A stretch of 64,000 bases of DNA, from assembly GCA_964017155.1 (NCBI GenBank), contig OZ024856.1:40666770-40730769 (forward strand), in the 5' to 3' direction. Position 1 is the stretch's first letter; the number at the start of each line of letters is the position of its first letter. The notes beneath the pieces were generated by a model. That model was not told where the DNA came from and searched no databases. It saw only the letters and a list, made by a program, of their open reading frames with translations. Below are positions 14,261 to 50,889 of the stretch, piece after piece. The stretch is from Oasisia sp. SBJ-2009. Its lineage: Eukaryota > Annelida > Polychaeta > Sabellida > Siboglinidae. The position numbers were made by a program, and so were the translations under genes.

Positions 14261-17200
14261 TTATATAAGCCCCTTTCGTTTCTTGTAGTCCTCCAGATTC
14301 AGCGAACGCCGTGGTGCGACCTCCCGAACATGTGACGTCATCCGGTTTGTTGTGATGCCCATTGACGTATCTACAGCAAGAAGTGGCCATATTAGTGAAC
14401 AAGTAAGGGCTTATTTCAACTCTACCATGAGGTCTGCTATCTACTGGCATATAATATGACTTGTCACAGCGTTAATACAAAAGGGACCAGGTGGCCATGA
14501 AACCCTTCGGGCTATACTGTGAGTGTAACTTATAATCAAAATGGTTTTTTTTTACTACTGGGTTATCAGGGTGCCTCCTTAGTAACCCTGTGTGACAGCC
14601 ATGGTGTTACAGCTAGATTGACAGTGCACCAGGTACTAGATTTATTTATATACAGGCAAAATTTGTAAATTTGGGTAGTGGCTTCTTGCTAAATCAGCTC
14701 ACGTACATGTGCCCATTAAATGCATGTAAAACACCTAATGTACATCTTGTCAAAAGTACTTTCAACCTAACCCTAACCCAAGCCTAAATCCTAACACTAA
14801 ACCTAAACCTTATTCCACATAAAAGCAACCAAAAATGGTCACTTGTACGTGAGTGGTTAGCAAGAAGCCACTACTGAAAGTTTGTGGGGGCCCTCATGTA
14901 TCCTCAGATTGATTGATGCAACTACAAATAGTAGTTCATAGTTGCGATCATCTATAGGATTACATCAGAAATCATATAACAAAGTCATCAGTTCAGTATT
15001 GTAAACTAATGTGTTACTGTAATAGACATAACCTGGATGTGAACCACTAAAGAGAGGAGTGAACATTAGGAGTGAATGTGTATCGCTGAAAATGATCTCT
15101 AAGGGAAAAAACAAACTTACTGAGTGGTATATCCACATCGATTTTGATGTCGAAATCATGTACGGAGAAGAGATCGCTGGTACAGTCTGCTGACTTGTCT
15201 GCCGTTAGTGTGACGTCTGCCCCATCAACGTCATCTGTTCGCTGTGACACAATGTGACAAACAGCTTCAATAACCACGCAAGTAAACAAATCACCACAAA
15301 CCCATCACCACAACTTTCTCAGCTGAATTCTGAATATTCTTAATTCCAAGACATAATACGGTAAATATGTGAACTGGATTGCAAACAAAAATACTGAACT
15401 TTGAGTAGGACACGACAGAAAAACAATGAAATCCAAATGCCAATTTACGTGAAAGATCAAATTTTCATCGCCAAATGAATGGATCATTTCATAAAAAAGA
15501 ACAATAAACTATCAGACTGACACTGTTACTGGGCAATTGATTACGCTTGTGAACAAGCGTTTAATCTAATGTTGCGTCTTAAATAATGCATTTTAACTGG
15601 TGTTGCAAAATATGATGTAGAACCAACTGAAGCTTATAATGAAAGAAATTACAACAACATTTCACACCATAGGACTAACCTCTTTATTTGTACCCTGGCC
15701 ATCAGCACCATCTTTCGTTGCTGCCTCTGCTGCCTGGAACGTATCAGGACATCACACAATGTAAACGATACATTAAAAATGCCAAGTTTTATATAGTGCA
15801 ACATAGAGTCATCACCATGCTCCCTGGCAAATATGTCTGTTTGATAACACGCACAACCTATGGGAACTACCGGTATTTGCAATGCTGCAATTACTGCACA
15901 AAGGTTATGTATTAATGTATTGTAGCCGTATTTGAACATATAAATAAACCCTCAACTACCACACAGATTTGAAAGTGAATACAATATACTTTTTTACGTA
16001 CCCAGCAGTTGGTTATTCAAGAAGTGAATAGCTATATTCCTAAAACTCAATTTATTCAACATTTCCTTAAACATAGCTCAACTTGAATATGTTTACCAAT
16101 TAAAACGGGAAGTCATATTATCATAGCAGCTGTATTAGAGGGAGTGAGTAAGAGAGGCAATGAAAGACAAAGGGTTAACCCTACCTCCAAGGCTTTCTCC
16201 TTCTCTGCCTGCTCCTCCAGTTGTTTCTGTAACTTTGCTTCATCTCGCCCCTACGAAATAACACACACAGTGTGAACTCTCACTGAGGAGAAGTAGTCCC
16301 AGTAACTTACATCACACTTACACCTACAGTAACTTGATAGTATTGATAAGTCATTACTATTTCTGTTGTTAAGACATTAAGAGTACTCCAACATTATACT
16401 TTCAATAATGTCTGGAAGTAAATTCCGGAGGTGATTAGAACTCTCAGAATACGAAACAATTTATTTGACCTTTACCTGCAAAACACATACAGTGAGAAAC
16501 ATATCTAACATAACAATTATAAGGTCAGGGAAACTCCTGTTAAGACATAAAATACCGCTAGCACAGAAGCCACCACATATAGATAATAACATAAACAAAA
16601 ACATAATTTGCATGATTTATTGTGTATAACTGGGTACACAACTACACACACAAATATATATATATATATATATATATCACGATACATAATTACAAATATA
16701 GCAATTATTGATATGACAGCTGGATTAATAATTTAAAGTGAAAACCTTTTTTGTGTAAATGAAAACAAGATAAATAAACTTGACCAAAAATCGAGGTGTG
16801 ACTGTAACGAGCACTCAATATTTGTTAGCGGTGTGAGCAACTGTTGAGTGGTTGTATCCGCCCACCTTTGTGACGAGCATGGGTCGACACCGCCGCCGCG
16901 TGAAGGGGTCCTGCTTCTCCAGCTTCATCTCGGCGGCGTCCTTGATGGCCGCCTCCTCCGCCTCCTTCAGGTTCTTCAGCCGGTTCCGCTGGTTGATGTA
17001 ACTGCACAGGGAGCAGGCATTGTAGGTCTGGGACACAGACTGCACAGGGAGCAGGCATTGTATGTCTGGGACACATAGACTGCACAGGGAGCAGGCATTG
17101 TATGTCTGGGACACATAGACTGCACAGGGAGCAGGCATTGTATGTCTGGGACACAGACTGCACAGGGAGCAGGCATTGTAGGTCTGGGACACATAGACTG

Positions 17201-19145
17201 CACAGGGAGCAGGCATTGTATGTCTGGGACACATAGACTGCACAGGGAGCAGGCATTGTATGTCTGGGACACAGACTGCACAGGGAGCAGGCATTGTAGG
17301 TCTGGGACACATAGACTGCACAGGGAGCAGGCATTGTATGTCTGGGACACATAGACTGCACAGGGAGCAGGCATTGTATGTCTGGGACACAGACTGCACA
17401 GGGAGCAGGCATTGTATGTCTGGGACACAGACTGCACAGGGAGCAGGCATTGTAGGTCTGGGACACATAGACTGCACAGGGAGCAGGCATTGTATGTCTG
17501 GGACACATAGACTGCACAGGGAGCAGGCATTGTATGTCTGGGACACATAGACTGCATAGGGAGCAGGCATTGTATATGTGGGATACATAGACTGCACAGG
17601 GAGCAGGCATTGTATGTTTCGGATACATAGACTGCACAGAGAGCAGGCATTGTATGTCTCGGACACATATATTGCACAGGGAGCAGCCATTGTATGTCTC
17701 GGACACATAGATTGCACAGGGAGCAGCCATTGTATGTCTCGGACACATAGACTGCACAGGGAGCAGCCATTGTATGTCTCGGACACATAGACTGCACAGG
17801 GAGCAGCCATTGTATGTCTCGGACACATAGACTGCACAGGGAGCAGCCATTGTATGTCTGGGACACATTGGTTTTACTCAGGGCTTTATGCAGGATAAAA
17901 TTATTGCGTCACACAGCTAGTTTACAAACTTTCAAATGTGCCTGATGACCTGAAATGGGCTACAAACACACATGACACCATTTACACTCACTTTCGAGGC
18001 ATAACTAACACTATCTATGGTTTTGGAAGACCTTTTTGTGCTCCTTCTTTTTTTCCCCCGCCAACACCCGTCCACCCATATTTCTACCCGTCCATATCCG
18101 TTTTTACCTGTCCAAATGACGGGTGGACGGGTCTCTGCATAAAGCTATGGTAATACTGCATATTCATAGACTGTACAGCACAAACGGAGATAAAGAATGG
18201 CGCACAATGTTAGCTGTGTTCACACTATTTCCAGTGATGCTGAAAATGTGAGGCAAAGTTTGGTTGTAAGAAAAGAAAAATATTTTCACTGTGGAAAACA
18301 ACCGTTAACACTATGTTAACGGCAGTTTTCACTCTAATGGCCACAATTTTAACTGATGGCTCCCATTCTTACACCACAGGTCAATAATTACAACCAACTT
18401 TAGCAGGTGTCATAAAACATAACAATTTAAAATATATAAACATAATACATGGGAGACATTTAAATAATGTACACATCTAATATATAAAAGATTAGTCTAT
18501 ACCAAACTATTTCTTGCATTTATGTAAATGCAAAATATCAGTATATAATGTATGTTCACCCTAACTACAGATGACGTCTCATCACCTAGAAACAATGAAC
18601 GTTTGTACACCGGAAGTAGCCACAGGTGTCAGCACTGACCTGACGGAGCTGATGTTGCTACTGCGGAGTCGGTCGAGCTCCGATGCTCGCTGCTCCAGTT
18701 CATCGAGCTGTATTGTGAGGTCTGCCGCCAGCTCCAGATTGCCCTCGTTCTCCGCCATGTCCTGACACAAACACAGACACATGCTACCAGTGATGACAGT
18801 TACTTCACACAAACACAGACACATGCTACCAGTGATGACAGTTACTTCACACAAACACAGACACATGCTACCAGTGATGACAGTTACTTCACACAAACAC
18901 AGACACATGCTACCAGTGATGACAGTTACTTCACACAAACACAGACAGCACGCTACAAGTGATGACAGTTATTTCTAGGCAAACACATCGACCAAGTAAG
19001 AAAAAAGGAAACCTAATAGAACATCTCTTTGCTAAAACTCGCACATTTTGGGAGAACAATTTAAAAACAATAAAAAACTTACATACATCACACATGCATG
19101 CATGCACATATATGTATATATGTGTATGTATATATCTATAAATAC

Positions 19146-19213
<68 letters not shown>

Positions 19214-22200
19214 CTAGTTGAGTATGCACACATTTGTATTTTAAATGGCAATATGCTGATACTGTGCACCTGACGGATTTGATACAAGCTTGTTTGTATT
19301 CAATTTTATATGTTTTTAGTTGTCAACACCCACAAAAGGGACATTAGCCCTGGATTTTATGGTGTTTAAATAATGTTTTTATTATGGGCAAATGTGCCGG
19401 TCAAGAATGTGAAAGTTGGATCCCGCAAATTAAATGAAACCACAGGAAATCCCACTCTAATTACCAGCCAAATCAATCACACATGCAGTGCATTTTCTAA
19501 CAGTATCACCTACTGTCTGCCTCCTCAACATTACATCAACATCAGCAGTGACTGGCCAAGTCCAAATCGCTACGAACTGAATAGCAACAAGATGACTGGA
19601 CCAATTTAACATCAGCATCAATTTTGTCTAGGCCAGACGATACAGAGGCCAAAATCACCAGCAGTGCCCACCTTCAGTTTCATCAGGTGAGTCTTCTTCA
19701 TCGCGTAGTTGTGTGGATTCTTCTGGAACTTCTGCTTATCAGCTACGATCTACAAACAACAACTGTCGACTTTAAGTCACAGAGAAAGGAGAATGTACAG
19801 TTTTCAATTTACGATGACAAGCACAAAATTACTAATAACACTTTTATGCAAAACTGTTCGTGAATTTTCTTTCAATGCCACGTGTGCTTAACAATTCTGT
19901 TTTCTCCATCAAAACCTGCTTGTTGAATGCATAAACATTATTTGGAATAGGTTTTCAGATCTTATTACTCAAATCACAGTCATATGACAGATGGTTGTCT
20001 GAAGAAAAAAAATGGTATACTCGGTAATTACACTAATGACAAAACCTAGTTATTATTACTTAAATTACTTTCACAAAACACATTAGAAGAACCAGTTCTT
20101 CTCAGAGCAATGACCACATACCGTATCAATATCTTTCTCATCAAATTTGTGTTCAAGGGCCTTCCTGATGTCGTTCGCTTTTTTTTCGACTTCGGCTATC
20201 GTGGGAAGCTGAGCGCCCCCTATCATCATTGTTTCAACCCACTTGTTGAACTCTGACTCTGTGAAGTCTTGATTTGATACAAACTCAAGCCGATAGACTC
20301 GTTCCGCTGCCCCATGTCTGTGAAATGCAAAATTCACTGTAAGTTCTAGCTATAGCAAAAGCATTCTAGTTGTCAGAACTCCGGGAATTTGTATTACATA
20401 TGCATAAAAATAAGTTAACAGAACATAGTTGTAAATCGTATGAGAACATAATAAGGATATACCTGCCAGCCAGTTGCAAGTGATCATAGCTTTATTAAAA
20501 GCAGAGTTATGGATATTAATGTAATGGTCAATAAGCGAATCAGATAAACGTTCAGTGACCTGTTTCTACAGTAATACCTGACATAGCTTTTTTTGCAATT
20601 TTTAAGTTCCGTGAGAGCCACGAAATGTATTGAACTGAATCAAAATAGGAGTTGGGTTGGGTTTTGAGCGACTGATTTGACATGGAATGACATTTGACAT
20701 GGAGTGACCTTATAGACATTATACATTCGTACTGCTATCCATCCCTGAAGAGCTACTGACTTAACTTGACCTTCGGGAAATAGCTTACATTGTAAATCTG
20801 GTATTATTTACACAACATTATCAGACTTATCAAATGACCTACTTTAGACGTAACCCTTTGTTTGTCCGTGTTGTGCCAAGCTGATAGATCTTTGCCGTTT
20901 CGACAGCGTCTGTGATTTCTGCCACCTACAATCAGAGATTTTACTATTAACAAGTAAACATAGTCATACCCGGCACTTAAAGGCAGTCTTGGAACTAACT
21001 AACAAGACCAAGCCAAAACAACAGTGTTACCAGTATTATTCTGCCACTGCAGGCAGCATCACAGGTATATTTATCAAGGTAACAGTATGAAACACTGGAC
21101 AAAATCAAAGCTATATGGAGAGCATTCGAATAAATAATATACAACAGTACTGCTGGTGGACTACACATAAACTGTTGATATTATCATGCCTGCATTATGA
21201 CTACCAGCTACATTTTAACATTAATGGTTATTACAACACCAATGTCCATTGTATAAACCATATGGTATAAGCATTAACTGTACTTTACTTTATAAATACA
21301 TTCACCAGAGACACTGACCCTGTAGACAGCCCGGCCATCGTGATTGCCAATACCAATCCTCACATAGCATCCGACGACGGTCTCCTTGAAAAATGGCATA
21401 TGACACCACCTGGAATAGACATGCAATGGGTCAACAAAATGTCACATTTCATGTAGAAAGGTAAATGTAAAAGGCTTGTTCTGATTGATACATTTTGTTT
21501 GTGACTGGTCCAGTCATGCTTCTGATAAATTACCCTCTTGATAGTTTAATTTTTTTTTTTTTTAAATACTGATACATTTATGATTACCAAAACATATTTA
21601 GGTTTTGTGAAAGAGACACCACAAACGGCTACTCTCATGATATGTGTGGGAACTTTACATTATGGAACACTCTATGCACTACCTATACAAACATCACCAG
21701 GCCATTCAATAAGCTTCCTGTAATGATTATTATGAACATGTGTACATTATTATCAGATGCATCCCGTTTTTGTGCGACCTGCCAACAATAGGTTGCTCGT
21801 GCTGCCACCTAGTGACCAACCTATTCTTATAATGGCTGGTTTGAAAAGCCAAATAATTAAGGAAACCACACACCTTCCCACGACTCAACAGGTACTTAGT
21901 TTTTACAAGCGCCAAAAGAATGATAAGCCAGGGAAAACGTCTTCAAATAAGACTACAGTAGCCATGACAATTCCCATATTTACACAACAAAATCTCGCAA
22001 CAATCCTGCAAGCATCAGAAGACGACCTACTTCTCCAGTTTGTGCCGAGACAATCGTATCCTTGCAAGTTCTTCTCGTGTCGTGATGGCCTGCTGCTTCC
22101 TGCGAGGAATCTCACTGAAACCGGAAGGAACGCTACATAACGCTATATGACTATTGGGATAAACATATCCTAAGAGGTCTGATGTATCCACTTAGGCAAG

Positions 22201-25200
22201 GCACTTAGGGTGTCTGCTCATTATCCAGCTCAAGTTTTTTCAGATCAAGACCACTGAATGTCAAAGTCCATGATCGGTTGTTTCGTAACGTCTCTGTGTG
22301 GAATCTTTCAAAATTTTTCCATTTACACACAGGGGCATAGATGCGAATGAAAATTACCCGAAAGTTGGTGGACTCAAACCATGGTCCTTGTCACCGATAT
22401 TCCAGAGTTTCATCCACTAGACCACTGTGCCTTACAAGTCTGAATGAATACAAGCTGGAGGTACATGTGTATGTGTGTATGCATGCGTGTGTGCCTATCT
22501 ACACGTGTGTGCATATACAGTGTCTTACTCACTCTTCAGCTTCGGAGTCTGACTTGCTGCTGTCGCTGTCACTGCTACTGCCAGATGACGACCGTTCACT
22601 CTTCTCAGATTCGGAGTCTGACGACTTCCTCTTTGCATTAACGTCATCATCATCATCGTCATCGTCATCATCATCATCGTCATCATCATCCGAGTACACT
22701 TCACTAGTCTTCAGCTTGTTCTTCTGTTCCTGTATTTCCGCTGCAACCAGTAGTAAGGTGTCACTCGCTTATTGAACTTATACAAACTGGGCAACTACAG
22801 GGTCAGTGGATCATTCATGAAACATCGCAGTCAGTGGCCTCATCAGTAAGTACTTCTGATAAACCTTTCACTAGTTGTTGCACAGATGTTGTTGTATGGT
22901 AACATCAACAGGACCAACATCCATCATCACCACAACAACGACCAATGATGACAACACAACCATGTAGACTAGATAGTGACTTGTTTTTTTTATGAGACAT
23001 ACAACTTGTGATGGACTTTGGCAACACTGTTAGCATAAGAAGAAGAATTTGCCTTTATTTGATCCATACATAATATAACAAATCAATGTCAAAAATCCAA
23101 ATTACATGTAAATTTATTGTATACACAACATAATATGACATTAAAATAAAAAAAATTGTGTCAGGACTCAGGAGCCTCTTCTAAGAGAGTAACAGTCACT
23201 ACTGAGGAGCCACCACCAAAAAGTAACTTTAACAATATAAAACACATCACCCAAAACAAATTCTTCCCAAAAATATTTTATAAATGTTAACAAGAATGTA
23301 GTCTTGCTTCCATGATTAACGAGTTTGTCTTCATGGCACAATGTTTGTGTTGTAAAAAGTTGAAAAAAAGTTAACAAGTGGTTGTTAGTTCATATTTTGG
23401 CATACATATGTGACTCATCTTAACAAAAGCGGTCCGATGTCGGTAAATCAGATTTTCCGTAAATGCCGATTTTGTGAAAAAATTGGGCATTCGTCAATTT
23501 TGAGATTTTCCCTGAAAATAATTCTTTAGTATTCGTTTTATCGATTGCCACACTTGTTATCATCTAACTAACTCTGTTTCATATATTTTAAAGACATTTG
23601 CGTAGAGCTGTGCTAAGTGTTCCGCTCCATTTCCATAAAACAAAGCCGAAAATGCCAGTAATTGCGCGCATTCTTTGCCGCTAATTTTGGGACGATCCCT
23701 ATCATAACGGGTATCACCGCGTAGCTTAACGCGTCATCTGTCCATATATGGTCATTCTATGCTAATGCATGCATTGTCCGGCCTCCAGAACTCTTGGAAT
23801 AGACCCCCTATTCGTTCAACTGTGGTAAACAAACCGGGGTCACATGGTAGCAACAGCTCCGGAAACCGTTCTCATTGGTTCAGCGTGGAACATTTGCATA
23901 ACCGAATGTGCGCACCGTGTATTTACTTCGCGTCACTGCTGACCTAGTTAGCGAGTGAACACGAAGCGAAAAATGGCGTGCAGTGTGGCGAAGTTGTTAA
24001 ACTCTGATGCAAGTGTTCGGGCACAAATAGATAGTTTGATTGAGGCGACCGGAGTACTTTTTGGAGGAAGTGTCTGATGAAAGCGTGGCGGACGATGACG
24101 AGGATGACAATTTTGCGCGAACTACATCACTGACAAAGACGAATATTGAATTCGACTTTCGTGAGAATGATTACGACACGGCACGGCTACGCAAGTCGCG
24201 CTGACCGATCCGTAGAGACGGTGTCAGATTCTCCGGATGAGGAATTGGGAAAAGCAAATGCAATACAGTGTATCATGAAAATTATACTATCTTTGAGTTG
24301 TCCAAATTTCAGCCAGATATGTCCATCCTAACCAAGGCATAAACAGCAGCAGAGTTTCTTCGCTTTTCTTAACAACGAAGGTGACTGCATAAATTATTAA
24401 TTAATCTGCAATTGTTTTTCTAATAAACATTTTGTGTTCATATTAACACGGTATCTTAAGAATGACATTATCTTCCAACAAGCCAAGTTTCAAAAAGATC
24501 GGTCCATGGTAACAAAGGTACATTCCATGAAACTTAACAAATATTTTGCATCAACTTTGAAGGCCATTTTCTTACTTTGAAGGTTTCTACCCCACACATG
24601 TTTGTCAAGCTATAACTTCGGCTAGAATCGAGATATCTTCTAGCATGATATACCATATGAAAGCAGATATTATGCTCTTTCCAGTGGTACTAATAACTCA
24701 ATTTTGAAAATTACTGACATCCGACCGATTTTGTTAAGATGAGTCACATATATAGTGTGTGTACTGTGATTTTCTTTAACTATATCAGGAATGTCATTTA
24801 GTAAGTGGCAAATTATGCCCACAATGTATGAGTAAAACAAGAAATACATGCATGATGACTTAATTATTATCTGACCTAACAATCAGTGGAAATCTCCACT
24901 CAATCCTGTTGTGCATGCATTGTTTGAGGTAACAGTTCTAATTGAACAGATGAATTGAGGCTTTTGTGAACTTTGCAAGGTGAAGACTGAGGTTGGATTC
25001 TTTGTGAGTCTCAAGAGGGATTAAACTAGATTTGTTTGCATTTTCAAGTCACAATAATAGTATCCCTACTCCAGTATCTATGAGCTTGGAGATGGATTTG
25101 CAATTTTCTTTCTCAAAAGCCTGATATTAATTTTAACCACCACAGCCTTGAGATGGCCCCCAAAGAGGAACAAAAAAGTGGAGGAACAGGAAAAAACCTA

Positions 25201-28200
25201 AACATTATAAGAAATGCACCTGAATGACAAAGTGGAGATGTCATTTCTGCCTTGTGCACCAGGAGGCATCAAGAGTTTTCTAAGTAAGCAAGAACATAAG
25301 AGAAACGACACATGACAGACCTTGTTTTCGCTTCTCCTCCCTCTTGGCCTTCAGGTCCTGCAGGGCCGACATCTTCTTAGTGTCCTTCTTGCCCTCGATG
25401 ATCTTCCGTCGTTCCTGACTGCGCTGACTCACCGAACGCATCGCAAATGACTCGGCTGCACGTTTGTCTCGTTTCTGTTCTTTTTTCTTCGCTTTCTTGA
25501 GTTTCTTCTCAATCTCGAATCTGCACATCACGGAAAAAGGTTCTCAGTTTCTGGGCTGTATAGTTATAAAATGTGTTTCACATTTAAGAAAAAAATTCAA
25601 TTTTGTAATGAATCTTCTGAAAACCTTAAATCAGGGCTGCCTACTTCACAAAATATTTTTCCGTAATGGTCATGCTGGTGGAGGTGTCGGGTTGGCAGAC
25701 AGAGGGGGGGGGACTACCCTTATATTACATTAAAGAGCAAAACTGGTAGCTTTGATCTAGAGACACATTTGTGAAGGTATCTCCTATCTATCCCTGGTCA
25801 ATCTGGCAAAACTGGAAGTACCTAGGGTAGGTCATTGAGAGGTCCTTTTCAGTTGGAAGACATGACTTCTTGTGGCTAAGTTACCATGAAAATTGTCCTG
25901 ATTATACAAAATATACTTGATATGTAACCATGCATGCTGCGCTAAAAAAACCTAGACATAATATATATAAGGGGGAGTTCCTTGAAATGATACCCATGTC
26001 TAGTTACCATCTGTGTAATGTTCAGGGCAGGGGTCAATTCAAAAAGAATTGATCAATTCAATTACAATTCAATTCCAGAATTGAAGCGCGAATTGGAATT
26101 TAAAGATTTTGAACAAATTTAATTGAAATTAGAAATGATTTTTTTTTTTTAATTGGAACTTAAAGATTTTGAATTGAATTGAAATTGAATAAAAAGGAAT
26201 TGAGCATCTGATATTTCACAGAAAGTTGGGAGTATTGCAGCGCAGCCAGTGGTGATTATAGGTGGAATTGAAAAACATTGAACTGGAATTGAATAAAAGG
26301 AATTGCAATGAATTAGAATTAAAAGAATGGAATTGGTCCCAGTCCTTATATTGTTGGCCCTTGTTCTAGCCTTTTCAGGAAAACATTTGAAAAACAGAGC
26401 GGCTTTGATAAATCAACACATCCACTACTACTACAGGCAGTGCCACCCCCTCTTATCCAGTCCACCCCACAGTAATTAATCAAGCCTTTCCCAGTGGCAG
26501 TCTGTCAATTCCTCAGCTGTAACTAAATCCAAAGTCTTTAAACCGTTGATGAATTGTTTCTTTCCCTCTAGTCTGGGTTTGCCCCCTGCCCAACCACCAC
26601 AGCAGCCATGGCTTCATTTACTGATAAATTGCAACTAGTGAATTATTACATTTTCTTAGGCAGACCACTGGGTATGAACTTGTCAGGACATTAACTTAAA
26701 TGTAGCAGTTCTTTGATGTGCATACTAGTCTCAAGTCTGATATGCTTATTTGCGTAATACACGTACTACCCGTAATCTGAGGTCAATTTCCGTAAAGATT
26801 ACGGAAAATCCGTAATGGTAGGCAGCCCTGTTAAACCGTTGATGAATTGTTTCTTTCCCTCTAGTCTGGGTTTGCCCCCTGCCCAACCACCACAGCAGCC
26901 ACAGGCTTCATTTACTGATAAATTGCAACTAGTGAATTATCACATTTTCTTAGGCAGACCATTGGGCATGAACTTGTCAGGACATTAATTTAAAGTGTCA
27001 CAGTTCTTTGATGTGTATACTAGTCTGAAGTCTGATATGCTTATTTCCGTAATACAGGGGCAGTTTCCGTACTACCGTAATCTGAGGTCAATTTCCGTAA
27101 TGATTATGGAAAATCCGTAATGGTAGGCAGCCCTGTTAAATACATAAATAAACCTTGGCATTGTTTCCCAAATGCCCTGAGCATTTTGTTTTTCAATGAA
27201 AATAATGGACAGGCAGAGCTAAGCTTTAAGTTATTTTTTTCATTCGCCTCCTGGGCCTACATTTTGCATATCCAAGTTACTGGTCCAAGTTTTGCATGAA
27301 CATGCATTTAATTTGATAAAAACATTGCTTCACAAGAAACCCAGAAGCAAGATCATGTGGACTTTTGTACATATTTGTTTTTTTGAGAAATTAACATAAC
27401 AAATATGAGACGAGAGCATGAAGTTACTCTTGTAGCAGACCAGAACTTGAGCAATCATTCAAAGTAAATGAGCAGCTACCTTCCGTGCAGTTTTGTGAAA
27501 CTCTTAATTTTTGCCTATTCTTTTTTCTTTAAAAAAATTAATATAGCAACATAAATAAGCTACAACACAAAGTTAAATGAAGATTGGGAGTGTGGTGTTC
27601 CCCTCAGTATGCTACTTGGGCCACCTTCAATACACCCAGGCTGTACCTTGTGCGCATGACCTCCCTCCTCTCTATGCGGTTGTACAGCTCCTGCTCCCGC
27701 TCCTTCTCCGTCATCTCCTCCAGTCGCTGTCGGTCCGCGTCGTCCCCGATCAGGTTCTCATCGAGTCCGTCGTGGAACTCCTCCAGCGAGTCGGAGTCGT
27801 TGTCGTCCCCGGAGCCACCATCACTTCCGGAGTCAGACACCTCACCTACATGAACAATATCACTTCAGATACCTTGCCTACATGAACAATATCACTTCAG
27901 ATACCTCGTCTACATGAACGATATCACTTCAGATACCTCGTCTACATGAACGATATCACTTCAGATACCTTGCCTACATGAACGATATCACTTCAGATAC
28001 CTTGCCTACATGAACAATATCACTTCAGATACCTCATCTACATGAACAATATCACTTCAGATACCTCATCTACATGAACAATATCACTTCAGATACCTCA
28101 TCTACATGAACAATATCACTTCAGATACCTCATCTACATGAACAATATAACTTCAGATACCTCGCCTACATGAACGATATCACTTCAGATACCTCGCCTA

Positions 28201-31200
28201 CACATACGATATCACTTCAGATACCTCGCCTACATGAACGATATCACTTCAGATACCTCGCCTACACATACGATATCACTTCAGATACCTCGCCTACATG
28301 AACGATATCACTTCAGATACCTCGCCTACATGAACGATATCACTTCAGATACCTCATCTACATGAACGATATCACTTCAGATACCTCGCCTACATGAATG
28401 ATATCACTTCAGATACCTCATCTACATGAACGATATCACTTCAGATACCTCGCCTACACATACGATATCACTTCAGATACCTTGACTACATGAACGATAT
28501 CACTTCAGATACCTCGCCTACACATACGATATCACTTCAGATACCTCGCCTACATGAACGATATCACTTCAGATATCTCGCCTACACATACGATATCACT
28601 TCAGATACCTCGCCTACATGAACGATATCACTTCAGATACCTCGCCTACACATACGATATCACTTCAGATACCTTGACTACACATATGATATAGATTCAA
28701 GATTCAAAAAACTTTATTGTCCGTTTAAAAACATATTAAAAACGGAAATTTGTCTTCAGTCACACATAAAATGAGAGTAATAAAACATTGGTGAATCATA
28801 AAGGACCTACAGTTGTCAATACACAATAAAATGATAGTAAATATAGTCATCACTAAAATTACTATATTTACTAAAAAATCAAACACACATGCAGAAATTG
28901 AGATAACTAACATACCTTCCTCTGGTTCGGAACTCTTGCCCCCGTCATCCTCACTTTCAGACGACAGATGTGCTACAGCCTTTTTTGCAGGCTTCTTCAG
29001 TTTTGCCTGTTTCTTCTTCCTCTTCCCACCAGTTGTCCACTGTCAATGACAAAAAAAATGTCAGCATTTAAAGAACTAGAAGGGGACTCTCATCTTGTGG
29101 TAAATGAGACAAATTTGCATATGTCAAACACAATGCTATCTTTTGATTTTTGTAAGAACTCAGTAAATTACCACAAAAGATGATGATACAGCGTGTCCAA
29201 AATTACAAGCAGTTTTATCTAAATATCTTGGAGACTGTTAATAGAGAAAGTAGTTCCAGAAATGTGAACCAAGGTCAACCTCACCCCTGACAACAGGGTT
29301 TCAGGAGCAGAATGACATACTATATCAATGTGCTCAACACAGAAATAAACGACTGCTTATAGTAAAAGCTGTCTACACACATAACTACTGCCACTCAGTT
29401 TCTACATCATTAGGAAAGGTCAAGGTTGTTTCATATTGGCTGCGAAAATACCAGATAGTGGCAACTGGCAGTCATAGACAGGATGATATAATGAAGCCTT
29501 CTGATCAGATGCAACACCAGCACGATACAAACATTGAAGTCAGCTTGTGTAAACTGAACATGGACGCTAGTTATCAACATTTAGTTAACTACAAATGAAA
29601 AATGGATGAGGCCCTGATATCGCTTGGACTATATTGTGATTTTGGTGAATCATAGTGGCACTGACATAGAGTATCAATACACAATTAGATAAATTTGTAT
29701 TGAGTTTATGACAAAAATAGGCACACCATAAAACAAACTGCAATCAAATACAAATGTATTGTGTATTACCTTTCCACAAAAATAAATATATGCAAAATTA
29801 GAGAAAAAGATAGTTACATTTTTTTTACAGAAAAAACTGAAAATGGACCAGTTTTCGAGCCCTCGAAGACCTTATGGTACCTTTACAATGATCCAATCAA
29901 ATATAAATTTATTATGTATAGTTGCAGTGCCCTAATAAAACATAGATCCAATACATTTTCTGAGATATGGGAGCTAACGGCCCAAAAGGACTAAAAATAT
30001 TTACACTGGTCAAGTAGAATGCACCATTGTAAATGCAATTAATGCTAATTAATCGGTTAATAACATACTTCTTCGTCACTACCCGAGGAAGATTCTGATA
30101 CGCTGTCACTGTCGGCCTTGGCAGCAGCTGGTTCGGAGTTCGTTTTCTTCTTCTTTGCCAGAGCTTTCAGGGCCTAGACGAAAGGAATAATCAGATTGTT
30201 GCTATCTTATTTGTTCCTGAAATTCTGGGGTCACTTTTTGTTTTCTTCTATTATTATTTATCATACTGGAATGTTATCCATAATTATACTATATACGGTC
30301 ATAAATTTCATAATACTTGCAAAGCTACACATATACACACATCTAGGACGACACAAATTTGCCAAAAAAAGCCTTGAATATAATTTCCTTCCTATTATAA
30401 ACGAGATTCCAGAATTAGTTTTAGAAAAACCTTTATTTTGGGATTGTCATTTAATTATTTCTACTTGTATTACACTATACACAAGCATGGCACTAAATGT
30501 ACTTCAGATATGGCTTCACCTACAGAGATAGACATCGTATTGAAGAAAAAATATAGATGATGTAGAGAGGTATATTAAATGTGTAACATTAGAAGTCGCT
30601 TCTCTGATAGCTACATTTTAGTTTTAACAAGTCACTGACTTCCATTTCACAGGTCATTTTTGATTACTTATAATAGCGTGTTTAACAATAGTTTATGTAC
30701 ACATTATTATTTCTTGTACTTGTTGGGGTCAAAAATAAACATCTTGTTCTAATGGAGCTATTTCTTTTGATTAATGATTACACTCACATACTAGCTACAT
30801 ATTTATAAAACTACTGGGTAGTTTGTTATATTTTTTACAATTTCCAATTCATTTTACCAGCATTTTACAGCAAGGTTTTCATTTTTTTTTTACAATTTAT
30901 GGTGATCATTTCCCTCATCTTCGATGAAAGAAATCATCACCCTAAATTGTCCGAGATGTGTCCGAGATCTGTTTTGGTTGTTTTTCAAAAATTTTAGGAG
31001 TCTGCACGATCAATTTTTCTGGCATGTATAATGAACTCATGAAAAACTGGCAAACATTTAAACCGCTGATTTATTGGCGTAAAGAAGATTGAGTGAAGTC
31101 AAGAAATGGAAAATAAAGAAGTGTCCAACAGGTTACATTTTTTCAAGGCAGCGTACTTAGCCTTTAGAACTAAGACATAATGGGCACAAAACCTAAAATA

Positions 31201-31454
31201 TCGAAATGTGTTGTACTATTCACTAAAATATACAGATTCATTTTGCTAAATAATATTTGGATAGGTGTTTTTGACGGATTTCTGTTTTTGACTGCAACGG
31301 AGTTTCTTGACTTTCTTTGATTTTTGTTGTTTATAGCGGTCCTGTAAATGAATAAGTGGTCACTGAGAAGTTATACCTCTTCAAAATCGGAACCACTATC
31401 ACTGCCATCGCTATCTGATTCAATTAATGCGACCTTCGTCTTTCGTTTAACCAT
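14261..31454 (-). CDS. RTF1: RTF1 homologue, Paf1/RNA polymerase II complex component, 17 coding exons
   Basis: Exons, 5' to 3' (minus): 31454-31377, 30173-30069, 29039-28916, 27845-27647, 25520-25321, 22740-22533, 22114-22031, 21409-21319, 20925-20843, 20317-20122, 19749-19672, 18761-18640, 17001-16866, 16250-16185, 15733-15680, 15241-15121, 14370-14261. All are GT-AG with consistent phases, giving 684 aa (human about 710). The start [16 protein letters not shown] resembles vertebrate RTF1. Residues about 124-190 are the histone-modification domain ([25 protein letters not shown]), which promotes H2B ubiquitylation. An uninterrupted run of 16 Asp (253-268) comes from GAT/GAC repeats. The Plus3 domain (about 318-450: [43 protein letters not shown]) binds phospho-Spt5 in known homologues. 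It ends [14 protein letters not shown]. Introns carry transposons, and three acceptors carry minisatellites. Confidence 0.96.
14675..14874. mobile_element. 200-bp MITE with telomere-like interior (RTF1 last intron)
   Basis: Terminal inverted repeats gtagtggcttcttgctaa (14675-14692 and reverse complement 14857-14874) extend with a small gap into ctcacgtaca. The centre (about 14768-14816) holds degenerate ctaaccctaaccc, cctaaatccta and aacctaaacc units. It has no coding capacity. Target-site duplications were not resolved. Confidence 0.8.
17002..17868. repeat. 40-bp minisatellite abutting the RTF1 exon 13 acceptor
   Basis: About 22 units of 38-40 bp. On the RTF1 (minus) strand each unit ends with tgcctgctccctgtgcag, which at the array edge (17002) is the real 3' splice site of exon 13. 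The pyrimidine tract and AG are therefore multiplied about 22 times. Part of the array has a three-unit higher order (40+40+38 = 118 bp). The minus strand is open in all three frames because the unit lacks stops; the resulting 296-347 aa ORFs are not regarded as genes. Confidence 0.95.
18764..18975. repeat. 42-bp minisatellite abutting the RTF1 exon 12 acceptor
   Basis: About five units of 42 bp (plus strand: acatgctaccagtgatgac, agttacttcacacaaacac). On the minus strand each unit contains tgtgtctgtgtttgtgtgaag, and the real acceptor is tgtgtctgtgtttgtgtcag at the array edge (18762), so the units carry a near copy of the splice site. The copies' AG is out of frame with exon 12. The distal unit (about 18940) is degenerate. 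Confidence 0.9.
19125..19206. repeat. (TA)n microsatellite, RTF1 intron 11
   Basis: An alternating AT tract with a few GT/GC interruptions on the left, in the intron between RTF1 exons 11 and 12. A shorter TA tract lies at about 16656-16677. Confidence 0.9.
22150..22440 (-). mobile_element. tRNA-derived SINE, antisense, RTF1 intron 6
   Basis: On the minus strand an A box (tggtctagtgg, about 22425) and B box (ggtttgagtcc, about 22376) sit at tRNA-like spacing after aaggcacag. The body contains gataatgagcagacac and agtgccttgcctaagtgg, resembling common SINE cores. The family differs from the SINE copies at 6.6 and 47.2 kb. The low-coordinate end is approximate. Confidence 0.65.
23040..23385 (-). 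mobile_element. Possible LINE 3' tail, antisense, RTF1 intron 5
   Basis: The segment starts gaatttgcctttatttgat on the plus strand, that is AATAAAGGCAAATTC at a minus-strand 3' end, as in the other LINE tails of this window. It contains a minus-strand ORF of 69 codons without recognisable motifs. This is weak, based on tail style and context only. Confidence 0.3.
23409..24749. mobile_element. 1.34-kb inverted-repeat DNA transposon with TA flanks (RTF1 intron 5)
   Basis: The ends match as inverted repeats for about 38 bp with three mismatches, starting tgtgactcatcttaacaaaa on both sides (23409 onward, and the complement ending at 24749). A TA dinucleotide flanks each end (23407-23408, 24750-24751), as expected for a TA target duplication. 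Inside, the plus strand from 23973 reads [12 protein letters not shown]..., then after breaks [15 protein letters not shown] and [16 protein letters not shown]. This is an acidic N-terminal-like fragment interrupted by stops with no catalytic domain. It is probably a non-autonomous derivative; the superfamily was not identified. Confidence 0.8.
25632..27135. mobile_element. 1.5-kb inverted-repeat element with CAGGG ends and TTAAAT duplication (RTF1 intron 4)
   Basis: The left end cagggctgcctac (25632-25644) is matched by its exact complement at 27123-27135. The hexamer ttaaat directly precedes the left end (25626-25631) and directly follows the right end (27136-27141), as a target-site duplication would. 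CAGGG termini suggest the hAT superfamily, but hAT duplications are usually 8 bp, so this is tentative. The interior has a GAATT-rich tract (26030-26340) and an imperfect tandem duplication of about 300 bp (about 26541-26831 and 26832-27135), each half ending in the same terminal repeat. Confidence 0.7.
27846..28690. repeat. 32-bp minisatellite spanning the RTF1 exon 4 splice junction
   Basis: About 26 units of 32 bp (plus: gcctacatgaacgatatcac, ttcagatacctc). On the minus strand each unit reads ...gttcatgtag|gcgaggtatctga-agtgat, which parallels the real junction tgtag|GTGAGGTGTCTGA (27846/27845) followed, after six extra bases, by AGTGAT. The unit therefore appears derived from the intron-exon boundary itself and carries the acceptor AG and about 20 bp of exon. 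Units vary as tgaacg/cataca types in partly alternating order. Confidence 0.92.
28690..28905 (-). mobile_element. LINE 3' end fragment, antisense, RTF1 intron 3
   Basis: Plus-strand agattcaagattcaaaaaac followed by tttattgtcc is, on the minus strand, a 3' terminus of the form GGACAATAAAGTTTTTTGAA with a short TTGAATC repeat tail, typical of CR1/L2-like LINEs. The remainder is AT-rich 3' UTR-like sequence with no protein motif. It borders the exon 4 minisatellite. Confidence 0.5.
30240..30755 (+). mobile_element. LINE 3' fragment in RTF1 intron 1, same subfamily as the 60.7-kb element
   Basis: The translated segment [19 protein letters not shown]...PELVLEK closely parallels the C-terminus of the element at 60.7-63.9 kb (RHEFAKKSLKHNLPHTIND...PELVLEK), and nucleotide similarity begins upstream near 30245. 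The frame is broken and no RT core is present. The 3' end lies near an AATAAA at about 30732. It is inserted opposite to RTF1 transcription. Confidence 0.8.
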
Positions 31455-38501: not shown

Positions 38502-41500
38502 CTTGTGTCAGCTGGCTATATTTAAACTATATATACACATGTACCAGTACTTTTGTGTTGACTGTGTTTATTTAAAAAAATACTGTGTTTTTGTTACAAA
38601 ACTTAATTCAGCTGAAACATACTGTCAACAATGTTGCTAATAATGTAAATTGTATCAGTTGCTGAGGTATGTTGATAACCAAACTTTAATTTTCAACAAA
38701 CCAGCAATGCTCAATAACTTATCAAAACATTAAAGACACAAACCTGACTGTTTTTATAAACAACCATGTTGTATGATATAAACTGTATGTATTTTTCTAA
38801 GATCGAGAGCCCAAGTGATTTAAGTGCTTACATTTATACAACATACATTATGAACCATGTTATGACAGCAACACGTACATTGTGAACCATGTTATGATAG
38901 CAATACATACATTATGAACCATGTTATGACAGTAACACATACATTGTGAACCATGTTATGACAGCAACACATACATTATGAACCATGTTATGACAGCAAC
39001 ACAGACATTGTGAACCATGTTATGACAGCAACACATACATTGTGAACCATGTTATGACAGCAACACATACATTGTGAACCATGTTATGACAGCAACACAT
39101 ACATTGTGAACCATGTTATGACATCAACACATACATTGTGAACCATGTTATGATGGCAACACATACATTGTGAACCATGTTATGATGGCAACACATACAT
39201 TGTGAACCATGTTATGATGGCAACACATACATTGTGAACCATGTTATGACATCAACACATACATTGTGAACCATGTTATGATGGCAACACATACATTGTG
39301 AACCATGTTATGATGGCAACACATACATTGTGAACCATGTTATGACAGCAACACATACATTGTGAACCATGTTATGACATCAACACATACATTGTGAACC
39401 ATGTTATGATGGCAACACATACATTGTGAACCATGTTATGATGGCAACACATACATTGTGAACCATGTTATGATGGCAACACATACATTTTGAACCATGT
39501 TATGATAGCAACACGTACATTGTGAACCATGTTATGATGGCAACACATACATTGTGAACCATGTTATGATGGCAACACATACATTGTGAACCATGTTATG
39601 ATGGCAACACGTACATTGTGAACCATGTTATGACAGCAACGCATACATTGTGAACCATGTTATGATGGCAACACATACATTGTGAACTATGTTATGACAG
39701 CAACGCATACATTGTGAACCATGTTATGATGGCAACACATACATTGTGAACCATGTTACGATGGCAACACGTACATTGTGAACCATGTTATGACAGCAAC
39801 GCATACATTGTAAACCATGTTATGATGGCAACACATACATTGTGAACCATGTTATGACAGCAACACATACATTGTGAACCATGTTATGATGGCAACACAT
39901 ACATTGTGAACCATGTTATGATGGCAACACGTACATTGTGAACCATGTTATGATGGCAACACGTACATTGTGAACCATGTTATGATAGCAACACATACAT
40001 TGTGAACCATGTTATGACAGCAACACATACATTGTGAACCATGTTATGACAGCAACATGTACATTGTGAACCATGTTATGACAGCAACACATACATTGTG
40101 AACCATGTTATGATAGCAACACATACATTGTGAACCATGTTATGACAGCAACATGTACATTGTGAACCATGTTATGACAGCAACACATACATTATGAACC
40201 ATGTTATGACAGCAACACATACATTGTGAACCATGTTATGACAGCAACACATACATTGTGAACCATGTTATGACATCAACACATACATTGTGAACCATGT
40301 TATGACATCAACACGTACATTGTGAACCATGTTATGACAGCAACGCATACATTGTGAACCATGTTACGATGGCAACACATACATTGTGAACCATGTTATG
40401 ATGGCAACACGTACATTGTGAACCATGTTATGATAGCAACACATACATTTTGAACCATGTTATGACAGCAACACATACATTGTGAACCATGTTATGACAG
40501 CAACGCATACATTATGAACCATGTTATGACAGCAAAGCATACATTATGAACCATGTTATGACAGCAACACATGCATTATGAACCATGTTATGACAGCAAC
40601 ACATACATTGTGAACCACGTTATGACAACAACGCATACATTATGAACCATGTTATGATAGCAACACGTACATTGTGAATCATGTTATGACAGTAACACAT
40701 ACATTTTGAACCATGTTATGACAGCAACACATACATTGTGAACCATGTTATGATAGCAACACATACATTGTGAATCATGTTATGACAGTAACACATACAT
40801 TATGAACCATGTTATGATAGCAACACATACATTGTGAACCATGTTATGACAGCAACACATACATTGTGAACCATGTTATGATAGCAACACATACATTTTG
40901 AACCATGTTATGACACAACACATACATTGTGAACCATGTTATGATAGCAACACGTACATTTTGAACCACGTTATGACGGCAACGCATACATTATGAACCA
41001 TGTTATGACAGCAACACATACATTGTGAACCATGTTATGACAGCAACATGTACATTATGAACCATGTTATGACAGCAACACGTACATTTTGAACCATGTT
41101 ATGACAGCAACATGTACACTATGAACCATGTTATGACAGCAACATGTACATTATGAACCATGTTATGACAGCAACACGTACATTTTGAACCATGTTATGA
41201 CAGCAACACATACATTGTGAACCATGTTATGATAGCAACACATACATTGTGAACCATGTTATGATTGCAACACATACATTGTGAACCATGTTATGACAGC
41301 AACACATACATTGTGAACCATGTTATGATAGCAACACGTACATTTTGAACCATGTTATGACGGCAACACATACATTATGAACCATGTTATGACAGCAACA
41401 CATACATTGTGAACCATGTTATGACAGCAACATGTACACTATGAACCATGTTATGACAGCAACACGTACATTGTGAACCATGTTATGACAGCAACATGTA

Positions 41501-44500
41501 CATTATGAACCATGTTATGACAGCAACACGTACATTTTGAACCATGTTATGACAGCAAAACGTACATTGTGAACCATGTTATGACAGCAACACATACATT
41601 GTGAACCATGTTATGATGGCAACATGTACATTGTGAACCATGTTATGATAGCAACACATACATTATGAACCATGTTATGACAGCAACACATACATTATGA
41701 ACCATGTTATGACAGCAACACATACATTGTGAACCATGTTATGACAGCAACACATACATTGTGAACCATGTTATGATAGCAACGCATACATTGTGAACCA
41801 TGTTATGACAGCAACGCATACATTATGAACCATGTTATGACAGCAACACATACATTGTGAACCATGTTATGACAGCAACATGTACATTATGAACCATGTT
41901 ATGACAGCAACACGTACATTTTGAACCATGTTATGACAGCAACACATACATTGTGAACCATGTTATGATAGCAACACATACATTGTGAACCATGTTATGA
42001 TTGCAACACATACATTGTGAACCATGTTATGACAGCAACACATACATTGTGAACCATGTTATGATAGCAACACGTACATTTTGAACCATGTTATGACGGC
42101 AACGCATACATTATGAACCATGTTATGACAGCAACACATACATTGTGAACCATGTTATGACAGCAACATGTACACTATGAACCATGTTATGACAGCAACA
42201 CGTACATTGTGAACCATGTTATGACAGCAACATGTACATTATGAACCATGTTATGACAGCAACACGTACATTTTGAACCATGTTATGACAGCAACACGTA
42301 CATTGTGAACCATGTTATGACAGCAACACATACATTGTGAACCATGTTATGATGGCAACACATACATTGTGAACCATGTTATGATAGCAACACGTACATT
42401 GTGAACCATGTTATGATAGCAACACGTACATTTTGAACCATGTTATGACAGCAACATGTACATTGTGAACCATGTTATGATAGCAACACATACATTATGA
42501 ACCATGTTATGACAGCAACACATACATTATGAACCATGTTATGACAGCAACACATACATTGTGAACCATGTTATGACAGCAACACATACATTGTGAACCA
42601 TGTTATGATAGCAACGCATACATTGTGAACCATGTTATGACAGCAACGCATACATTATGAACCATGTTATGACAGCAACACATACATTGTGAACCATGTT
42701 ATGACAGCAACATGTACATTATGAACCATGTTATGACAGCAACACGTACATTTTGAACCATGTTATGACAGCAACACATACATTGTGAACCATGTTATGA
42801 TAGCAACACATACATTGTGAACCATGTTATGATTGCAACACATACATTGTGAACCATGTTATGACAGCAACACATACATTGTGAACCATGTTATGATAGC
42901 AACACGTACATTTTGAACCATGTTATGACGGCAACGCATACATTATGAACCATGTTATGACAGCAACACATACATTGTGAACCATGTTATGACAGCAACA
43001 TGTACACTATGAACCATGTTATGACAGCAACACGTACATTGTGAACCATGTTATGACAGCAACATGTACATTATGAACCATGTTATGACAGCAACACGTA
43101 CATTTTGAACCATGTTATGACAGCAACACGTACATTGTGAACCATGTTATGACAGCAACACATACATTGTGAACCATGTTATGATGGCAACACATACATT
43201 GTGAACCATGTTATGACAGCAACACATACATTGTGAACCATGTTATGACAGCAACACATACATTGTGAACCATGTTATGATGGCAACATGTACATTGTGA
43301 ACCATGTTATGATAGCAACACATACATTATGAACCATGTTATGACAGCAACACATACATTGTGAACCATGTTATGACAGCAACACATACATTGTGAACCA
43401 TGTTATGACAGCAACACATAAATAGTTTTGTTTTGACCACAGAGGGCGCTGTATGCAGACTGTGAATCACGAGGATGACGATGTCCCGCACAGTGCGGAG
43501 GATCAGTGCCAGTACAAGCACAGTCTCGACAACAAGGTGTACACATGTCGGGTGAGGCTTCATCTCTTGCATCTGTTTATAACCTTCTCTTGTATGCTTA
43601 TGTATACGTGCATGTGTATGTGGGAGTGTGTGCACATCTGTTCTTAATGCAGAGAAGTGTGTGTGTGTGTGTCAGTGTGTGTGTGGTGTGTGTGTGTTTG
43701 TGTGTGTGTTTGTGTGTATGTGTGTGTGTCATTGTGTGTGCGTGCATGCGTGCGTGCGTGTCAGTGTATATGTTGTCTGTGTGTGTGTATGTGTGTGTGT
43801 GTCAGTGTGTGTGCGTGTGTGCGTGTGTGCGTGTGTGCGTGTGTGCGTGTGTGCGTGTGTGCGTGTGTGCGTGTGTGTGTATGTGTGTGTGTGTGTGTCA
43901 ATAATAATTCAAATTATGATATATAATTGGTGCATGATTGGTGTCTGTGTTATAATAATAATAAAATACTTTATACACAATAACAATGTACATCAAACTC
44001 TTGCATTAGCCTAAGTTTGGAGGAAACCACCTGAGAACATATTAAATATTAATTAATAAAAAAACAAATAAACAAGTTAACTAAAATACCACTAAGTACT
44101 ACTACTGATAGTAATTGTAATATTACTAAAATAAATTAACACATATCTCAATAAAATATTAATAACGGTGAACAAAGGGTTTAAAATAAATACTTTGACT
44201 ACTAATATTATGTTATAGACACTGATAATTGTTTAGTTAAAATGAAATTGAAACAAGTTAATAACAACACTGTTGCTGGTGTCCTAGGCGTGCTATGACA
44301 GGGGGCGGCTGACTGTGGTTGTGCCAAAAGCTGCAGCTGCATCTGACAACACCATCTTTGGACTGGCAAAGTACGCCTGGTCTGGGTGAGTGGATGGGGG
44401 AGGTGTCGGCTGCTTCGGTCAGTCAGTATACGTATAAGTCCCCATGTAGATAAATACATACACACTTACATAGACACTCACATACATGCACATGTACACA

Positions 44501-45274
44501 CACACATGCACACATGCACGCATGGACGCATGCACGCACAAGGTACATAATGTGTGTTTACCTGTAATATTAACCAGTATAAAAGTAACTAAATGTTCAT
44601 TATTCATATGGCACCATTCGCAGTTATCACCTAGAATTTTTTTATTAACTGTTAAGAATATTATGCTTGATTTAGTTAAAATCTAATCCTGTTTCAACAA
44701 AGCTATTTAAACAAACTGCAGTTATTTCACATCTCTGTTTCCTGCTGATGTGCTTAGCTAATTTGTTGTGTATGTTGGAGTCATATATTGTGTGTTTTTC
44801 GTAAATATGAATCGTATGTATTTTATTAATATCTGTCTATAAGAACCTTACAAAGTGATGACTGCGTCACAGTATAATTGGATTGTTTATTAATTAACAA
44901 TAATTTCTAATTTATAAAAATGTTATACAAATATTTCGGTTGCAACCTTTACATCATATGTCAATATAGGATGGTTTAAAAAGAAGATGCATGTACAAGA
45001 GTAGATCACAGTTCGTTCCGTAAGTATTTGGTGACATCCTTTTCAGCTACGTGTTGGAGTGTCCCCACTGTGGCATCATCTACCGCAGTCGTCAGTACTG
45101 GTACGGCAACCAGGACCCAGACAAGGCCGCCATCCGCACGGAAGTGAGGCACGTGTGGCCAGGGGTAAGTCATTAGTTGTCAGTCTCCCTCAGTGGTGTG
45201 TGTTTGTGATACAAGGTGTCTCTGTTGAAAGCAGTGTGGTGATGAATTATGCCTTCTTGTTGTCCTGCCATATA

Positions 45275-45370: not shown

Positions 45371-45403
<33 letters not shown>

Positions 45404-46241
45404 ATTATACATTATGTAATATATGTATATACAGTATATGTATATATATAAGGCAGCTTATGTCGACCAATGCCTAGAGGACCGGCTTATGTAGACCAGG
45501 CGTATTTTTTTATTTAATACATTTTCCAAAGATGTAAAACAGGAACATTGTTTCTAATAGTAATGTTTAACACATAATGAAAGTTCATAAAAATATTTCA
45601 ATAAATAAGGTATATGCAAAAAAATCAGTCTACATAAAACCGCGTATACATAGATGCCGATTTATGTAGACCGGAGCAACGCCGGAAGCTGCATATATTT
45701 AGTTACCCTTTTTTGCGGTTGACGCAGAATCTAGCTATGTTGTGATACATGTTTATGCAGTAAATTTAACAATTTAGTAAATGCTGTAAAATTAATTGCC
45801 GAATACCAACGGCAACACCAACATTCGGGGGATCTATCAGTCCGCAAAGACAAAATGCAAGTTTTACTAATTTACCCATAATAATATAGCCTTTCGCGTT
45901 AGTATGAAGCATATCATACACTGAACACAAAACTCCAACCCTTCGTTCAGCATATACCATAAATATAGATTTATAAGAACTTTGACACGGTACACATAAC
46001 CTGGCACACAATATACTCAAAAATATGCACGACGCTGGAGAAAACATGCTCAAAATCACTTAAGATGTTGTTCATTTAAAAATTAATTACGCACAGTACT
46101 TCACTGTCATATGAACTGTGTGCACACGCAATGGTACTGATCAATTCAATTGTGTTAGTTGTGAACTAACACGTCGAATCTTTATGTAGACCAGTTTTGG
46201 TCTAATATGCATAATCGGTCGACATAGGCTGCCTTTAGAAG

Positions 46242-46291
<50 letters not shown>

Positions 46292-49200: not shown

Positions 49201-50889
49201 CTTTCATTGTGCAATCTTCTCTAAAAAATATTTTTTCAAAAACTTATGTATTTCAAAAGGATCTCCTGGAAAATTAATAGCTTGAAAGATGGACTCATGT
49301 TTATTTATTTGAGCTTGGTTTTTGATGTAAAGCTCATTGATCCACTAGGCAGGAATTAAGTCTACGTCAATGTGGCATTGTTAGACTAGTACACGGGTGT
49401 GTGGCTGTGTCTGTAGAGATGGTGCGAGGGAGTGTTAGACTAGTACACATGTCTGTGGTTGTGTCTGTAGAGATGGTGCGAGGCAGTGTTAGACTAGTAC
49501 ACGTGTCTGTGGTTGTGTCTGTAGAGATGGTGCGAGGGAGTGTTAGACTAGTACACATGTCTGTGGTTGAGTCTGTAGAGATGGTGCGAGGGAGTGTTAG
49601 ACTAGTACACATGTCTGTGGTTGAGTCTGTAGAGATGGTGCGAGGGAGTGTTAGACTAGTACACATGTCTGTGGTTGTGTCTGTAGAGATGGTGCGAGGG
49701 AGTGTTAGACTAGTACACGTGTCTGTGGTTGTGTCTGTAGAGATGGTGCGAAGGAGTGTTAGACTAGTACACATGTCTGTGGTTATGTCTGTAGAGATGG
49801 TGCGAGGCAGTGTTAGATTAGTACACGTGTCTGTGGCTGTGTCTGTAGAGATGGTGCGAGGGAGTGTTAGACTAGTACACGTGTCTGTGGTTGTGTCTGT
49901 AGAGATGGTGCGAGGGAGTGTTAGATTAGTACACATGTCTGTGGTTGTGTCTGTAGAGATGGTGCGAGGCAGTGTTAGATTAGTACACGTGTCTGTGGCT
50001 GTGTCTGTAGAGATGGTGCGAGGGAGTGTTAGACTAGTACACATGTCTGTGGTCGTGTCTGTAGAGATGGTGCGAGGGAGCGAGGACGCAAGGGAGGTGA
50101 CGGCCAGGAGGGTCGGGGAGGTGTTCTCATCCACCATGGGCAGTGTAGCCTCTGTTGTCAGCTACCCCATTGGTAAGACGGTCTTGTTACCCTCACTACA
50201 GTCAAACCTCACTGTAAATGTCCGATTTTGTGATCATCCATTTTTTAAATACAGACTTCCCCATAAATCAACGTTCCCTTTGCTGTGTATATCACATTTG
50301 TCGACTCTGTGTGAACCTTGCTACTAACTCATTGAGTCTGGTCGAGTGTGTAATGTGAACTGTGTTGTCAAGTGTGTAATGTGTATTGTGTTGCAAGTTA
50401 TGTGTTGTGTTGTTAAATGTTGTGCACATCACACCTGCCTCACGCTTTACTTGTTTCCTTATATCTTCCACACCTGTTAGACTGTCACTCTGTGCTGAGT
50501 CACCTTCACCATAGACATCATGTTACACTGAATATTTGTAGCCAGGTTATATTATAAAACTTATACAAATAGAATGTTGTTGCAGTAAACATATATCTGT
50601 GAGATAGATTTAAGACCAGACATTATAAAAGCGAGGGCCTGCATATTATGCTGCCAACTGGTGACTTTGATGGATGTAATTTGCTTATGGTGACTACGAA
50701 TTTGGTAATGTCTGATGCTGCCACCTGGTGACTATAACACAATTTAATCTGGTGAAATCAGATCTAGTGGTGCTACCTGGTGGCTAACGAAATTAATTGT
50801 TTCTCTTCCTTGTGCTGGCAACCAGTGACTGCCATAACAAATTATTATTGCTAATCCCAGTGTAATATATACAAGTGTGTGTATGTATA

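Follow-up and report, generated by a model that had tools for sequence, protein, structure and literature searches.

Results

Gene models and splice sites

The stretch of DNA analysed here, called the window throughout, comprises 64,000 nucleotides of contig OZ024856.1 from the siboglinid annelid Oasisia sp. SBJ-2009. It holds two adjacent genes, RTF1 and ZFYVE1, and this work concerns the minisatellites that lie on or directly beside four of their 3' splice sites (acceptors). Both genes were modelled with boundaries chosen by hand to preserve the reading frame and GT-AG splice signals, and the start codon of ZFYVE1 was assumed at 34372.

14261..31454, minus strand: RTF1 gene with 17 coding exons, GT-AG introns and a single open reading frame of 684 residues
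34372..51521, plus strand: ZFYVE1 gene with 11 coding exons and a single open reading frame of 863 residues, which includes a GBP-like GTPase region and a pair of FYVE stretches

A 518-residue join of RTF1 exon peptides, drawn from 12 of the 17 exons and some of them partial, matched human RTF1 in the PDB with E = 3e-118. RTF1 is highly conserved among vertebrates, and the 22 of 44 residues of exon 13 that are identical to the human protein would fit an invertebrate host. Exon 6 of this gene contains a coding microsatellite, a run of GAT/GAC codons for 16 consecutive aspartates (22644-22690, minus strand). For the second gene, a match to the guanylate-binding-protein domain and the two FYVE stretches fit the assignment as ZFYVE1, a name that we presume from domain content. 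Together the models contain 26 acceptors and 26 donors (5' splice sites). The exons that matter below start at 17001 (RTF1 exon 13), 18761 (RTF1 exon 12), 27845 (RTF1 exon 4), 43443 (ZFYVE1 exon 5) and 50065 (ZFYVE1 exon 10). Third-position GC was 0.59 and 0.65 in the two gene models, and GC of the window ranged from 0.29 to 0.48 per 2 kb, a combination that would be in keeping with amphioxus.

Location of the minisatellites

Arrays were called across the window with Tandem Repeats Finder (TRF). Six rows were not simple repeats and had a period of 30-60 bp and at least 5 copies.

17001-17868, minus strand: minisatellite on the RTF1 exon 13 acceptor, TRF 40 bp x 22.0, with 40- and 38-bp units
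18765-18987, minus strand: minisatellite abutting the RTF1 exon 12 acceptor, TRF 42 bp x 5.3
27833-28682, minus strand: minisatellite across the RTF1 exon 4 acceptor, TRF 32 bp x 26.6
49379-50080, plus strand: minisatellite across the ZFYVE1 exon 10 acceptor, TRF 54 bp x 13.0
38841-43420, plus strand: minisatellite in ZFYVE1 intron 4, TRF 32 bp x 143.2
52887-54544, plus strand: minisatellite 1.4 kb past the ZFYVE1 stop, TRF 35 bp x 48.4

An earlier note on this DNA had placed four minisatellites with units of 40, 42, 32 and 54 bp at the first four of these acceptors; TRF and the gene models agreed with it, also in the numbering of the exons. The arrays at exons 13, 4 and 10 reach or cross the acceptor, and the one at exon 12 halts just ahead of the CAG, 3 bases from the exon. 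Thus four arrays span or abut an intron-exon boundary. The intron 4 array is only near one: it ends at 43420, 22 bp ahead of exon 5, as the note had said. Its observation that no array sits on a donor was borne out as well: each of the 26 donors lies more than 60 bp from all six minisatellites.

The 35-bp array downstream of ZFYVE1, which the note does not mention, is a counter-example, with no modelled splice site there. Degenerate copies at its upstream edge extend the span to 52740-54544. On the minus strand its unit reads by eye as a good acceptor (a pyrimidine run, then ACACAG). A further gene with an exon beside it was considered and dropped, as no exon was recognised by eye at 52.9-54.5 kb.

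Rows left out of the count of six lie outside both gene bodies at 1065-1314 (periods 10-50) and 58897-58998 (12 and 18 bp). GT-rich rows at 56043-56241 were also left out, one of which has a period of 30 and 5.7 copies, yet is a simple GT repeat, as were long-unit rows at 2633-3472 (164 bp x 1.8 and 174 bp x 2.3), which are separate, adjoining low-copy repeats. Low-copy genic rows with a period of 21-30 (26091-26173, 26277-26336, 38561-38601, 44454-44519 and 50341-50410) were all more than 60 bp away from the modelled splice sites.

Anatomy of the repeat units

The arrays were cut at the point equivalent to the acceptor, and the limits of the units relative to the exon start were read by eye. 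Aligned in this way, the units at exons 13, 4 and 10 proved to be copies of the junction, and the unit at exon 12 a near copy with GAAG in place of the CAG of the true site; to this extent the earlier description of units carrying the acceptor or a near copy of it stood. The exon 10 unit runs from intron position -38 to exon position +16 and then restarts. The exon 13 unit runs from about -37 to +1, including one exon base, and has two extra bases; 38-bp variants are present. At exon 12 the unit covers -45 to -4, that is 42 intron bases and no exon base. The exon 4 unit starts at -13 and carries exon bases 1-13 with two differences, followed by GAAGTGAT, which recurs in the exon beyond a 7-bp gap. 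Its extent is therefore -13 to +26 if a 7-bp deletion is allowed; otherwise it holds 13 exon bases directly. Probably 26 exon bases were included in the first duplication, and a later deletion between short GA repeats removed 7 bp. The note gave 16 to 20 exon bases for two of the units; the count here is 16 at exon 10, and 13 or 26 at exon 4. The boundary itself, splice signal plus exon bases, lies inside the unit at exons 10 and 4, and with a single exon base at exon 13; at exon 12 it does not.

Unit limits differed at each of the four loci, with 0-2 bp of microhomology, which speaks for separate duplications of an ordinary kind and against a cut at a single fixed signal. The independent origin that had been proposed for the arrays was in line with their different units and different break points.

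The exon 13 array has an internal structure. Units of 40 and 38 bp alternate in its exon-side half only, giving a 118-bp period, and the intron-side half has a different variant. Adjacent copies showed greater similarity than copies in shuffled order (as close in 4 of 5000 shuffles), as expected from local slippage.

Chance and the acceptor-donor contrast

As a null model, random positions were drawn for the six arrays within the window, or for the five genic arrays within the gene bodies, allowing no more than 20 coding bases to be covered. On average 0.04-0.25 arrays then fell near acceptors. Not one of the 100,000 trials run for each setting reached the observed four (within 4 bp) or five (within 25 bp). 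Because the window was singled out for its arrays, the placement test overstates the genome-wide case. Arrays were present at 4 of 26 acceptors and at 0 of 26 donors. A one-sided sign test, done by hand, gave 0.03 for the contrast of five acceptors to no donor and 0.06 for four to none when only on-site arrays were counted; the contrast is suggestive only.

Duplication was also tested at all 52 splice sites with an ungapped 24-mer centred on the junction. Only exon 10 (23 matches) and exon 4 (21) stood out. Other acceptors had at most 15 matches, and none of the 26 donors stood out, with at most 14 of 24 and within background. The test was insensitive to exon 13 (15) and exon 12 (13) because their units hold few or no exon bases, and cases of these two kinds elsewhere would escape it.

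Acceptor strength and the spliced copy

Acceptors were scored with a weight matrix built from the 22 other acceptors, a crude score. The authentic sites of exons 13, 12, 4 and 10 scored 8.7, 9.2, 1.3 and 4.4. Upstream AGs in the array region that scored at least as high as the authentic site numbered 5 of 41 at exon 13, none of 11 at exon 12, 10 of 79 at exon 4 and 10 of 79 at exon 10. In the exon 12 units, GAAG scored at most 1.5 against the 9.2 of the true site, and the best upstream AG of any kind 4.6. For the intron 4 array none of 112 upstream AGs came near the authentic score (best 0.2 versus 6.4 bits), and the reading of this array as a copy of its own acceptor was rejected. It looks like a neighbour of the acceptor, not evidently its copy.

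Since upstream AGs match the authentic score at exons 13, 4 and 10, by this score local strength cannot pick the right copy there, and exon definition would be a natural candidate for the choice of the last one. When the last copies were used to join the RTF1 exon peptides, the product aligned without gaps to human RTF1 at the exon 3/4, 11/12 and 12/13 joins, so no residues are missing that an array would have to supply. These joins were set by hand, and the gapless alignment says that nothing is missing, not which copy is used. The homology of RTF1 would nevertheless favour use of the last copy. The boundary of ZFYVE1 exon 10 rests on frame and GT-AG.

Conservation and coding capacity of the arrays

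Of 59 units in the exon 13, 4 and 10 arrays, 57 retain the AG (the three authentic sites included, the exon 12 array not counted). Mean column identity was 0.94-0.97 and that of the AG columns 0.90-1.00. Invariant columns numbered 28 of 40 (exon 13), 22 of 32 (exon 4) and 46 of 54 (exon 10). Most other columns are equally constant, so the AG columns do not stand out, and selection on the AG was rejected. In the exon frame we counted stops in 0 of 288 codons at exon 13, 2 of 74 at exon 12, 29 of 278 at exon 4 and 0 of 228 at exon 10; the exon 13 array was free of stops in all frames. Shuffled consensus units were open in 19% (exon 13), 42% (exon 12), 3% (exon 4) and 30% (exon 10) of cases. The openness of the frames is thus within chance, and coding extensions of the exons were rejected too. 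Neither AG retention nor open frames indicates function.

Other features of the window

A third gene lies at about 5471-10142 on the plus strand. It is strictosidine-synthase-like (Pfam Str_synth, 8e-13 on joined pieces), and we presume it to be APMAP. At 9339-9530 it contains its sole TRF row, a GACC tetranucleotide array. A non-LTR retrotransposon at 60716-63860 (plus strand) has an 853-codon frame for a reverse transcriptase (Pfam RVT_1, 4e-33), preceded by an overlapping 208-codon frame that is endonuclease-like by eye, with no Pfam hits. A 176-codon frame at 49-579, likewise without Pfam hits, resembles by eye the end of a similar element. Rfam searches at gathering thresholds and tRNA searches gave no hits in the window.

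Discussion

The four arrays are very probably minisatellites of the mirage type, formed by duplication of an intron-exon junction followed by expansion on the intron side, with the upstream copies acting as decoys. At each of the four junctions a single short tandem duplication of about 39-54 bp would have copied the intron end, at three of them together with exon bases. It may have arisen through end joining or replication slippage with the 0-2 bp of microhomology seen at the break points. Such a duplication would be tolerated, since the copy nearest the exon leaves it with an intact acceptor. The copy number on the intron side would then have been raised by slippage or unequal exchange. The upstream copies would be decoy acceptors that the splicing machinery skips in favour of the last copy, probably by exon definition through exonic enhancers, the downstream donor and the shortness of the exons.

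The known cases come from amphioxus. The Adh3 mirages of Canestro and others (2002, NAR 30:2871) are reportedly boundary-spanning repeats with somatic length instability. Ordinary intronic minisatellites, or VNTRs (variable number tandem repeats), are tandem arrays of 30-60 bp units in many copies that are not built from an acceptor; the intron 4 array and the 35-bp array would be of this ordinary type.

In the globin gene BflGb6, the repeat consists of the 3' end of an intron and the 5' part of exon 2, with 6 and 3 units in two haplotypes, so that copy number differs between haplotypes (PMC3087553). Reverse transcription PCR suggested regular splicing of the globin mirages, and a model of intron gain was offered for them (PMC3087553). 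The arrays described here resemble BflGb6 in being minisatellite-like copies of a boundary with intron end and exon start, and in keeping the AG/GT signals in many copies. They resemble Adh3, a different gene, in spanning the boundary and in unit length, which PMC3087553 cites as 10-72 bp. In lancelet PGBD5, repeats of 60 bp and 108 bp lie at splice sites, and Adh and troponin C are cited beside it (PMC3902484); it differs in having 2-7 imperfect copies, at both 5' and 3' splice sites. A survey of mirages across a whole genome was not recognised among the matches listed in the literature search.

Several points weigh against this account. The tie to the amphioxus mirages is drawn from anatomy. 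The globin units measure 150-160 bp and reach at most 6 copies, compared with 32-54 bp and 5-27 copies here. Adjacent copies were not more alike at exon 4 (557 of 5000 shuffles as close) or exon 10 (3756 of 5000), so that local homogenisation was seen in one of the three arrays tested. Finally, the concentration at acceptors in the window is beyond what random duplication alone explains.

An alternative would be a mutational process that targets 3' splice sites, for instance through R-loops or polymerase pausing at the acceptor, and spares donors. All five multi-copy genic minisatellites lie within 23 bp of an acceptor and none within 60 bp of a donor, and the best donor reached 14 of 24 in the duplication test. 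We nevertheless consider such a process unlikely. The contrast of five to none is weak and was itself the reason for choosing the window. The unit limits range from -45 to +26 without a fixed cut site, and in the intron 4 array a copy of its own acceptor is not evident. Moreover, mirages can affect 5' and 3' boundaries alike (PMC3087553), and donor-side duplications are among the published amphioxus cases (PMC3087553, Figure 6 legend; PMC3902484), such as BflGb9, unlike the acceptor-side arrays here; if the phenomenon is the same, these cases speak against an acceptor-only process. Of the recurring local process proposed in the earlier note, the amplification of intron-exon junctions is supported; an undescribed process confined to acceptors is not.

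The note's other suggestion, that selection retains redundant acceptors as insurance or for alternative proteins through exon extensions, was not supported, and we regard it as very improbable. AG retention and the stop-free frames at exons 13 and 10 would be in its favour, but the AG columns are unremarkable amid the general identity of the units, shuffled units are open often enough, the exon 4 and exon 12 arrays contain stops, and the exon 12 units score far below their true site. That minisatellites are simply common in this genome and landed here by chance is hardly credible. Other repeats do occur elsewhere in the window, including the 35-bp array; the random placements, however, never matched the observed count, and the units copy the junction and do not merely adjoin it.

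The mirage-type arrays are therefore best filed as further cases, clustered together, of a phenomenon already described, not as a new kind. What is new is how densely they occur (on 4 of the 26 acceptors of two neighbouring genes), their copy number and the decoys. A wider claim, that this genome has a recurrent process specifically duplicating 3' splice junctions (about one acceptor in seven in the two genes), or that mirages exist outside cephalochordates, for a host that is another invertebrate, we put forward as doubtful. If it were true, the arrays would offer natural systems for studying how the spliceosome chooses one acceptor among dozens that are nearly identical; RTF1 exon 4 has 26 upstream AG-retaining copies before one real acceptor. 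Four junction duplications in two conserved genes would make this choice testable, between the first AG after the branch point and exon definition, and would open the raw material of intron gain to direct testing as well. With 4 of 26 acceptors affected here, mirages may be commoner than the few published genes imply.

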